From Geobacteraceae bacterium (lineage in GTDB: Bacteria; Desulfobacterota; Desulfuromonadia; Desulfuromonadales; Desulfuromonadaceae), in the NCBI GenBank assembly GCA_020201305.1, contig JAIVHC010000162.1, positions 1-33,304 of the forward strand: DNA of 33,304 nt, read 5' to 3'. Below the pieces are notes generated by a model, which did not search any database, was not told the origin of the DNA, and saw nothing but the letters and a program-made list of their open reading frames with translations. Both the position numbers and the translations under genes were made by a program. This document shows positions 11,697 through 15,866 of the stretch, piece after piece (the stretch's first letter is position 1; every line of letters begins with the position of its first letter).

Positions 11697-12167
11697 TCAG
11701 GTAACAAAGAGTCGATACGATGATCCTTCGCGCTCGCGCTGTAATGCTCCATCCCGATCCATCTGCAACAGCACGGCCTGGAGGGTTTTACGTTTTTCGT
11801 CCGGAAAACTCGAATAGAGCTCTGTCTGGAGAATCCCGGGCGTACGGGACACCAGATCGATAATCTGTGCATCAAGCACATTCTGCGCGTCAGCATCCGT
11901 ATCGATTTGTGTTTTGCCCGCAGCGATTTCAGAATTGTCATCTTGCGCCCAGGCAGAGTCAGATTGCGCTGGACCAGCACTCATCTGACGGTAGAAAAAA
12001 TACCCTAAACCGCCTACGACCAATAATACAAATATAATCTGCCCCATATAACCCCCCTCTGGAACGTCCATTCGATTCTGCGTTAACCAAAAAACCAGTC
12101 CAAGCGTAGCCATACATACAATCAGGTTATCCAGCCAGCTTACGATTGCCATAATCGGCGTCAACAA
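11697..12167 (-). CDS. Hypothetical membrane protein with C-terminal winged-helix-like segment
   Basis: 156 aa; two TM segments; C-terminal LVSRTPGILQTELYSSFPDEKRKTLQAVLLQMDRDGALQREREGSSYRL. Confidence 0.65.
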   Translation of the reverse strand: MLTPIMAIVSWLDNLIVCMATLGLVFWLTQNRMDVPEGGYMGQIIFVLLVVGGLGYFFYRQMSAGPAQSDSAWAQDDNSEIAAGKTQIDTDADAQNVLDAQIIDLVSRTPGILQTELYSSFPDEKRKTLQAVLLQMDRDGALQREREGSSYRLFVT

Positions 12168-12364: not shown

Positions 12365-12601
12365 TCAATCGTTTGAAGGGGAATAGCCCTGGCTATTTGT
12401 GGAAAAAGACTTCTGGGTACCCTTTCTCGTTTCTTCTGTGGAAGAATCAGAGACATCGTCAACATTATGCCTATCTTCCTGCTGTGCATTTTTCTCCCGC
12501 AATTTGCGCAGCTGTTCTCGCTCCAGGTCGCGAAAATACTTGTCTTCAAAGGCTTTCTCACGCTCTTCCCACACAGTTTTTTTCATAGGCAATTTCTCCA
12601 A
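12365..12601 (-). CDS. Small highly charged hypothetical protein
   Basis: 78 aa; MKKTVWEEREKAFEDKYFRDLEREQLRKLREKNAQQED...; start overlaps cas6-like 3' end. Confidence 0.55.
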   Translation of the reverse strand: MEKLPMKKTVWEEREKAFEDKYFRDLEREQLRKLREKNAQQEDRHNVDDVSDSSTEETRKGTQKSFSTNSQGYSPSND

Positions 12602-13577
12602 GGAATAAATTCTGCTTGATGCTTTCCGGGTTCATATACTCAATGGAGTATGCTCCGACACCGTAGGCTGCATTCTTGCCCAGGTTCAGTAAACTCCCCA
12701 ACTGGAGCATAGATAACATGGGGCCTGTGACATCGCCCTGTACACGCAGAGTGCCGCAAATACCCCCAAGGGGTTTGGATCGCCCCGATTCAGCGTGTAG
12801 ATAGCGCCAGTCATACCAATGGAGGTTGTTATCCTCACAACTCCAGCCATTTATTTCATACGCCAGTTCGAAATCAACTGGATCCAACTCTACCCCACAG
12901 TGGATATAAAGCATAGCGGTAACCCTGCGCAGAACGAATGGAAACAGCTGACCCAGATCAGGATTGAACAGGGGACGCCCGTGAGTGAGAATGCGTGCCG
13001 GAGTGATAAATTTCAGTTCCAGCAGATCACATGCCTGAGGTTGACCCCCGAGCCACCAGCCCAGATCAAGACGGGGGATGTTATGCAGCTGGTTTCCGCC
13101 GGATTCATGCCACACAGGAATCCTGTCTTCCCCGGCATCGCTTGCGAACACGCACTTCAGGGTATACTTCCCTGCATCAAGGCGTAATCCTGTCTTTCCC
13201 AGAGCTGCAAATACCTCAATCAGACCCGGGGCAAGCTCTGCAATATTTCCAAACAGACGAACTTCAAAAGTGAACAGTTCTCCGGCCCTGTAATCCCCCT
13301 GGCGTATGGACATCGGCACTAATACAAATGCAGGAGCTCCTTTCTGGTAGCGCTTAAGTGCCACAGGATCAGTAGAAAGCGGGGGCTCAAACAGAGGTTT
13401 AAACACCCCTTCTCTGTCGCGCAGAATCTCCTGCGCAGCTGTGCGCAAACGGCGACGCAGGCGCAGAATGGTTGAGATGTCTATGTGAACCGACTCCCCC
13501 ATCCGGCATTCGAAGTGCAACTGGGCAAATTCAGCCTGCAAGAGTAGGGGTATGAGGGGGTTATGCTGTGTCAACAT
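12558..13577 (-). CDS. cas6: CRISPR-associated RAMP endoribonuclease Cas6 family
   Basis: FVLVPMSIRQGDYRAGELFTFEVRLFGNIAELAPGLIEVFAALGKTGLRLDAGKY; PLGGICGTLRVQGD...LGSLLNLGKNAAYGVGAYSIE glycine-rich C-terminal motif of the Cas6 family; ORF open to 13616. Confidence 0.85.
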   Translation of the reverse strand: MLTQHNPLIPLLLQAEFAQLHFECRMGESVHIDISTILRLRRRLRTAAQEILRDREGVFKPLFEPPLSTDPVALKRYQKGAPAFVLVPMSIRQGDYRAGELFTFEVRLFGNIAELAPGLIEVFAALGKTGLRLDAGKYTLKCVFASDAGEDRIPVWHESGGNQLHNIPRLDLGWWLGGQPQACDLLELKFITPARILTHGRPLFNPDLGQLFPFVLRRVTAMLYIHCGVELDPVDFELAYEINGWSCEDNNLHWYDWRYLHAESGRSKPLGGICGTLRVQGDVTGPMLSMLQLGSLLNLGKNAAYGVGAYSIEYMNPESIKQNLFLGEIAYEKNCVGRA

Positions 13578-13759
13578 TATGTATGCCTGCCTGCAGTTCA
13601 AACCGAGCGCGCTCAATTACGCAGGTCTGAGAATATGAGCAACGCGAGTCGATTGCTTTATTCAAACCCTTTTGCTAATCTGCGCATCACTATTGAAGAA
13701 ACCTCGGGATTCCAATCCAAAACATCTCTTATTATCCATAAATCAGGACACTTCCTATC

Positions 13760-14875
13760 ATGTTCAAGTTCGACCTCTTACATACCGACAAACATACCCG
13801 CGCCAGACGCGGGCGTCTCCAGACTCCGCATGGCACTATCGAAACCCCCATTTTTATGCCGGTAGGAACCCACGGGGCCCTGAAGGCAATGACACCAGAT
13901 CAGGTGGAAACAACCGGAGCCCAGATCATCCTCTCCAATACCTACCATCTTCATCTTAAACCCGGTGAGGGGCTGGTCAAAAAAGCCGGCGGTCTGCACA
14001 AATTCATGCACTGGGACAAACCGATCCTTACCGATAGTGGTGGATTTCAGGTATTCTCGCTGCCGCATAAAAAGATTACTGATACCGGGGTATACTTCCG
14101 CCACGAAATCAGTGGGAAGGATGTTTTCCTCGGACCCCGCGAAGCCACCCATATCCAGAACGAGCTTGGTGCTGATATTATCATGGCTTTTGACGAGTGC
14201 ATACCCTACCCCTCCAGCCACGACTACGCCAAGAAATCAATCCAGAAAACCCTGCGCTGGGCGGGTGAGTGTCAAGAGGCACATACGCGCACAGATCAGG
14301 CCCTGTTTGCCATTGTACAGGGGAGTGTTTATCCGGATCTCCGGCGCGAATGTGCTGAGCAGCTCACCAGCATGGATTTCCCCGGCTATGCCGTGGGCGG
14401 GGTAAGTGTCGGAGAAGGGCTGGAGTTGCTTAAAAGCGTGGTGGAATATACCGAACCCTACCTGCCTGTGCACAAGCCACGTTATCTCATGGGGGTGGGG
14501 TTACCTGAAGATATACTCGAGAGTATTGAGCGCGGCATGGACATGTTTGACTGTGTCATCCCCACACGCTATGCGCGCAGTGCGACCCTGTTTACTTCAC
14601 ACGGGAAACTGCGCCTCACCAACAGGCGCTATCGGCGCGATTTTTTCCCCGTCGATCCGGCGTGCGAATGCTACTGTTGCCGCAATTTCAGTCGCGCCTA
14701 TCTGCATCATCTATACAACGCTAACGAGATTCTCTCCGCCACTCTGGCGGCAATCCACAATGTACAATTTTATCTCAATATAGTGGAACAGGCGCGCAAC
14801 GCCATTGAAAAGGATGACTACCCGGCATTTAAGCAGGAATTTCTGGGCAACTACGGTTTTTTTGATACCAAGTAA
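13760..14875 (+). CDS. tgt: tRNA-guanine transglycosylase (queuine tRNA-ribosyltransferase)
   Basis: 371 aa; LTDSGGFQVFSL, IMAFDECIPYP, zinc motif CECYCCRNFSRAYLHHL. Confidence 0.97.
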   Translation: MFKFDLLHTDKHTRARRGRLQTPHGTIETPIFMPVGTHGALKAMTPDQVETTGAQIILSNTYHLHLKPGEGLVKKAGGLHKFMHWDKPILTDSGGFQVFSLPHKKITDTGVYFRHEISGKDVFLGPREATHIQNELGADIIMAFDECIPYPSSHDYAKKSIQKTLRWAGECQEAHTRTDQALFAIVQGSVYPDLRRECAEQLTSMDFPGYAVGGVSVGEGLELLKSVVEYTEPYLPVHKPRYLMGVGLPEDILESIERGMDMFDCVIPTRYARSATLFTSHGKLRLTNRRYRRDFFPVDPACECYCCRNFSRAYLHHLYNANEILSATLAAIHNVQFYLNIVEQARNAIEKDDYPAFKQEFLGNYGFFDTK

Positions 14876-15033: not shown

Positions 15034-15083
15034 TACCGGATTCTGACACTATGCCGCTAAACTCGGCATAAAAGGTGGGACAA

Positions 15084-15866
15084 GTGAATTCTACGGGGGA
15101 GTTCAAGCAGGAACATGCCAGACTTCTGAAGCGCGCCCTTACCTGCGACGCTGCAGAGTTGCACACCATTTTGAGATCTGCAGAAAGTGAAGTTATTCGA
15201 GCGGCGCTGAAAAATGTCGCCCTCGAACCGGAACACCTGCAAAATCTGTTACAGCGCCGCGACCTGGATGCAACCCTGCTCACCAATATCTGCAAACACA
15301 AGATGAGCCATACCCGCTCCGTGGTGAATCAACTTCTGGCCCATCCACTCATCAACCCGCAGCAGATAAAAATGGTGCTCGAACGCCTGCACCTACTTGA
15401 ATTGCTCAATATCGCCATCCTGCCCGGACAGGGAGCGGATGTGCGGATCGCGGCAGAACACCAGTTATGCATGCGGCTCCCCACGGCTCCCCTGGGCAAC
15501 AAAATAACCCTGGCGCGCCGCGCTACTTATCCGATACTTGAGGCGCTAATGCTCGAGGGGCATCCGCAAGTGATTGAACCATGCCTCAACAATCCGCGCA
15601 TGAAGGAAGCGGCTATCTACAGATATCTCCACGGTCAAAACGTTGGTGCCGAAAGTATTAACAAGATTGCCAGACACCCGCGCTGGAGCAAACGCCCCAA
15701 CATACGATATGCAATTCTGCGTAACCGCCACACCCCTAAAAGGTTATTCACCCAATTTCTATGCGGGATTCCGCCGCAACAGGCGCGCCAGCTTCTTTGG
15801 AGCAAACATCTAAAACCAGCACAAAAAGAATGGATCAGGGATATTCTGGGTAAGAAGAGTGTGTAG
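15084..15866 (+). CDS. Hypothetical helical-repeat-like (HEAT-like) protein
   Basis: ~260 aa, helix-rich repetitive pattern (LLKRALTCDAAELHTILRSAESEVIRAALKNVALEPEHLQNLLQRRDLDATLLTNICKHK); RBS AAAGGTGG before GTG at 15084 (alternative GTG 15075). Confidence 0.75.
   Translation: MNSTGEFKQEHARLLKRALTCDAAELHTILRSAESEVIRAALKNVALEPEHLQNLLQRRDLDATLLTNICKHKMSHTRSVVNQLLAHPLINPQQIKMVLERLHLLELLNIAILPGQGADVRIAAEHQLCMRLPTAPLGNKITLARRATYPILEALMLEGHPQVIEPCLNNPRMKEAAIYRYLHGQNVGAESINKIARHPRWSKRPNIRYAILRNRHTPKRLFTQFLCGIPPQQARQLLWSKHLKPAQKEWIRDILGKKSV

Follow-up and report, generated by a model that had tools for sequence, protein, structure and literature searches.

In the type III systems of MMB-1 and Thiomicrospira, Cas6 is fused to RT and Cas1 and has a cognate array (PMC8102632), which is not the case for the protein described here. 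In such a type III Cas6-RT-Cas1 protein, the active-site arginine R37 was found to be needed for cleavage, of which 12% was left after its mutation (PMC8102632). A search of the open literature, subscription papers being outside its scope, gave no report on an orphan Cas6 in the Desulfuromonadia.

Here, a Cas6-like protein was analyzed that is encoded in a stretch of 33,304 nucleotides (the window) from a Geobacteraceae bacterium. The ORF starts with an ATG codon (Table 1). Its product matches the Pfam family CRISPR_Cas6 (PF10040) with an E-value of 1.7e-10 and a score of 41.9 bits, which is above the curated cut-off of 25 and qualifies it as a family member. The Cas6 model of PADLOC covers residues 15 to 313, and thus nearly the full length, with an E-value of 3.5e-53, and the PADLOC Cas6 models matched all 55 of the 55 family proteins scanned from the order Desulfuromonadales. 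In addition, LGSLLNLGKNAAYGVGAYSIE was found in the protein. The AlphaFold model, which was built on an alignment of 72 rows, is confident (pLDDT 90.2, pTM 0.87), and model and alignment together display the two-RRM Cas6 fold with a C-terminal Gly-rich loop. All of the nearest solved structures identified by Foldseek are Cas6 proteins; the best match was the Cas6 domain of the MMB-1 Cas6-RT-Cas1 fusion (PDB 6dd5; E-value 5.5e-13), and the Thiomicrospira protein (PDB 7kft) was matched with 6.6e-12. The original prediction of a Cas6-family protein is borne out by the two profile matches, by LGSLLNLGKNAAYGVGAYSIE and by the modeled fold.

Table 1. Features at the Cas6-like locus, with positions in the window.
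Feature	Position	Strand	Evidence
Cas6-fold protein, 339 aa, class-wide and probably domesticated family	12558..13577	(-)	Pfam, PADLOC, AlphaFold + Foldseek, family alignment
Partner gene, IF1-like (PF04568) N-terminal helix W-x-E-R-x-K-A-x-E	12365..12586	(-)	Profile matches, locus comparison
tgt, divergent neighbor, conserved synteny anchor	13760..14875	(+)	ORF reading, locus comparison
tgt/Cas6-like intergenic region	13578..13759	(+)	Sequence inspection
Small membrane-anchored protein, unknown family	11697..12167	(-)	Pfam scan, locus comparison

In the family alignment, the relatives linked to CRISPR share the motif GSxLRGxFG and four cysteines (100% each), an RxSxRQ loop (96–100%) and the histidine of LHVGK (91%). 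The RxSxRQ loop and the four cysteines are absent from the copies of the order, and of all these motifs only the arginine of LRG (R41 in the numbering of the 339-aa protein) was neither lost nor changed. It was identified in 97% of the order copies, in which G110, P193, R195, R217, R218, W254, D256, G271-G272, G300-K301, G306 and G308 are conserved as well, together with the Gly-rich loop and the sequence GKxAxxGxG. The order rows of this alignment count some genomes twice. At position 298, an N was found in 78% and an H in 11% of the order copies, compared to the 91% histidine of the CRISPR-linked relatives, in agreement with the earlier remark that the window protein carries an asparagine where many Cas6 homologues have a histidine. 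No conserved histidine could be found anywhere in the aligned order copies. Compared to the exchange of His for Asn, at a residue that may or may not be catalytic, the disappearance of the RxSxRQ loop and the four cysteines is the more telling change.

The absence of any conserved histidine, the predominant N at position 298 and the lost RxSxRQ loop could indicate that the protein no longer cleaves RNA and serves as an RNA-binding regulator or RNA chaperone. However, R41, R217, R218 and K301 are near-invariant in the order, and a crenarchaeal Cas6 has been described as having an atypical active site, as far as the title of the respective publication tells (PMC3652601). Furthermore, an arginine is the active-site residue (R37) of the type III Cas6-RT-Cas1 protein (PMC8102632). 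R41 may be its equivalent, but this equivalence is untested and no alignment stands behind it. A complete loss of cleavage is possible, though somewhat doubtful; it forms a sub-case of the domestication proposed below, so that the confidences in the two overlap.

No repeat-spacer array was detected in the window, neither by a direct-repeat search nor by script, and no other cas gene was recognized among its ORFs, all of which were read and a subset of which was compared with Pfam and PADLOC profiles. Within these searches, the orphan status assigned to the gene in the original prediction was confirmed. The genome to which the window belongs is a draft of 325 contigs with a completeness of 92%, in which profile searches identified no Cas1, Cas5, type III RAMP or Csm1. 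Candidate Cas3 matches were rejected (at most 35.9 bits at a cut-off of 102), since they resemble general helicases. The array search of the genome, which had been proposed earlier as a check, revealed no array of the ATTGAAAC type, based on a pattern search for the ATTGAAAC repeat end only. At the level of whole genomes, arrays were likewise sought by this pattern alone, and the search was not exhaustive for Cas10, for type I and type II effectors, or for arrays whose repeats end differently. Since the genome is only a draft, a congener and a closed relative weigh in the argument.

A PF10040 search identified the gene in 54 of the 58 order genomes, in single copy in 53 of the 54 carriers (two matches in G028). 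Across the class Desulfuromonadia, a family profile identified it in 176 of 195 genomes (about 90%), including genomes of the Geobacterales type, some of which contain two or three family members. A query of the genome contigs with a single sequence gave no matches, and the relatives were recovered with an alignment as query. In one family (f4), the gene is absent from all ten sampled genomes. Cas1 was detected in 23 of the 58 order genomes, but not in the genome studied here or in its congener. The Cas6-like gene is present in 22 of the 23 genomes with cas1 and in 32 of the 35 without it (Fisher p 1.0), and its presence is independent of cas1 across the order. The two properties expected of a CRISPR component, a linked array or cas genes and a dependence on CRISPR across genomes, were not found: the first is missing from the window gene and from the order loci, and the second from the gene's distribution. 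At least 27 carriers, including the single-contig genome G026, contain neither Cas1 nor Cas5 nor an array with the ATTGAAAC repeat end. With working controls, no type III RAMP (PF03787) was detected in any of the 58 order genomes, and Csm1 reached its cut-off in none of them. Below the cut-off, Csm1 gave short, partial matches of up to 26 bits. The possibility that the order has a type III system at some other place was rejected for want of RAMP or Csm1 profile support. The lack of PF03787 in the Desulfuromonadales sampled contrasts with the rest of the phylum sample, in which such loci are common.

Two candidate roles had been put forward originally, a trans-acting Cas6 for a remote array and a domesticated RNA-processing protein. 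As a standing host factor, the former would mature crRNA for a remote or occasional array, for which the intact fold and Gly-rich loop and the type I arrays and Cas5d present in some relatives could be cited. In type I-C systems, however, crRNA processing is done by Cas5d. The RxSxRQ motif, invariant in CRISPR-linked relatives, is gone, a type III RAMP was found in 0 of 58 genomes, and many carriers are without any CRISPR sign searched. The additional family members in some Geobacterales genomes also speak against this role, although their own linkage to CRISPR is unchecked. In view of the at least 27 carriers and the source genome, in which none of the CRISPR genes or array types searched was found, the trans-acting candidate is disfavored and considered unlikely, and the domesticated candidate is supported.

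The usual locus in the order is dnaE-accA-rlpA-tgt / Cas6-like gene / small genes / eno-phoH-HD, with the Cas6-like gene divergent from tgt. Here, the housekeeping setting beside tgt described in the original prediction proved to be conserved across the order loci, at which no array was found. In several families and in most of the examined class-level (Geobacterales-type) loci, frdCAB is located between tgt and the Cas6-like gene, whose neighbors across the class are tgt, frdCAB or eno. The locus set counts some genomes twice, and gene names beyond those profiled were judged from the sequence. Outside the class, the relatives occupy type III loci that also contain Cas1, Cas10-like and RAMP genes, and several of these loci have arrays. 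An origin in a defense family would be compatible with a stand-alone anti-phage protein that has no link to crRNA. Defense genes are usually patchy in distribution, whereas this gene is near-universal, single-copy, vertically inherited and placed among housekeeping genes, and such a function is regarded as very unlikely.

For tgt, the intergenic region contains a likely sigma-70 promoter (TTGC and a TATAAT-like −10 element, identified by eye), which is common to the relatives. A structured leader of the Cas6-like gene was rejected, since by eye the intergenic regions share only this apparent promoter. The small membrane-anchored protein is often encoded by the next gene in the same direction in relatives, which is an association only. 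The protein encoded at 15075-15866 (+) has no Pfam or NCBIfam match and adjoins tgt in many order loci. In a Geobacter group (L127, L134, L143, L147, L158), the Cas6-like gene adjoins an fdhD-like gene, a second non-CRISPR setting, and at four of these loci the product of a further gene is similar to HlyD-type secretion proteins; both names are sequence-based judgments.

The Cas6-like gene is followed downstream by a small gene of the same orientation, and in the window the two overlap by 29 nt, the end of the former with the start of the latter. In most relatives, its product combines an IF1/IATP-like N-terminal helix with a TFIIB-type Zn ribbon. In the full-length relative tested, the ribbon matches PF13453 (7.5e-14) and the match to PF04568 is weak; the window copy is barely above the PF04568 cut-off. 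The ribbon is missing in the window and in the congener, where the helix alone is left. The gene was found in 50 of the 58 order genomes and is adjacent to the Cas6-like gene in 44 of these 50. The Cas6-like gene was retained without a detected partner in four genomes (G019, G039, G040, G049). In f4 both genes are missing, and ftsH directly follows tgt in the same block. This joint absence supports a partnership but does not prove it, because it represents one evolutionary event in one family; a physical partnership of the two proteins is inferred. A connection of the gene absence in f4 with a loss of fumarate reductase was rejected, as 9 of 10 f4 genomes contain frdA. Helix and ribbon are also joined at L069:6464-6778, and a full-length copy was found on a 4.6-kb contig of the draft genome itself (C69:141-428), for which contamination is possible.

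Between close pairs of the Cas6-like gene, dN/dS ranges between 0.06 and 0.18. The gene is therefore maintained by purifying selection. In an unrooted tree of 73 rows, the order copies (SH-aLRT 100), the Geobacterales copies (99) and the CRISPR-linked copies (98) each form one side of a branch. The phylogeny, also named earlier as a check, thus separates the class copies from the CRISPR-linked ones. If the root is assumed to lie among the CRISPR-linked copies, a single domestication in the class ancestor follows. A single capture is hence inferred, and one versus two captures remains unproven because the tree is unrooted. The missing root would also allow the class copies to be the ancestral form, from which CRISPR systems recruited the Cas6 of this subfamily. 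However, copies linked to CRISPR are spread over many phyla, and the wider fold relatives are Cas proteins. A capture from CRISPR is therefore simpler, and the reverse direction has very little to recommend it.

Domestication after capture is thus the preferred explanation. In the ancestor of the Desulfuromonadia, a single capture would have brought a type III Cas6 into the vicinity of the tgt/frdCAB/eno block, where it became independent of arrays and cas genes and was inherited vertically. It would act as a two-RRM RNA-binding protein that recognizes a cellular RNA and possibly cuts it, probably together with the small IF1-helix/Zn-ribbon protein. This scenario is considered likely as a whole, with the RNA and its cleavage unknown. 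RNA binding by the protein is inferred; neither an RNA target nor a conserved RNA element was found for it, and the conserved synteny could be passive. The further proposal that both proteins form a class-wide housekeeping ribonucleoprotein which acts on a specific cellular RNA, by processing or guarding it, is tentative, falling just short of an even chance. If true, a CRISPR maturase would have undergone exaptation to a role outside immunity. More generally, domestication would provide a clear case of a crRNA maturase that left immunity for core physiology, vertically and class-wide. It is testable because the class has culturable members. The class-wide retention, independent of CRISPR, points to an undescribed role in ordinary cellular RNA biology. 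Tools which take any Cas6 profile match as a sign of CRISPR will produce false calls across the Desulfuromonadia.

Compared to known systems, the fold of the window protein is the same as in Pyrococcus furiosus Cas6 and Cas6-related structures (PDB 3i4h, 3ufc), from which it differs in organism and context. The identity to the closest solved folds, 6dd5 and 7kft, is about 14–15%. The type III-associated Cas6 proteins of PF10040, with CRISPR-linked relatives in Poribacteria, Hydrogenophilales, Magnetococcales and other Desulfobacterota, show homology over the full length and share TPxRL, LRR, WxDW, LGGxxG and GKxAxxGxG. In contrast to these, the order copies are located away from cas genes and arrays, are without RxSxRQ and the four cysteines, mostly have an Asn in place of His298, and are vertically inherited and near-universal.
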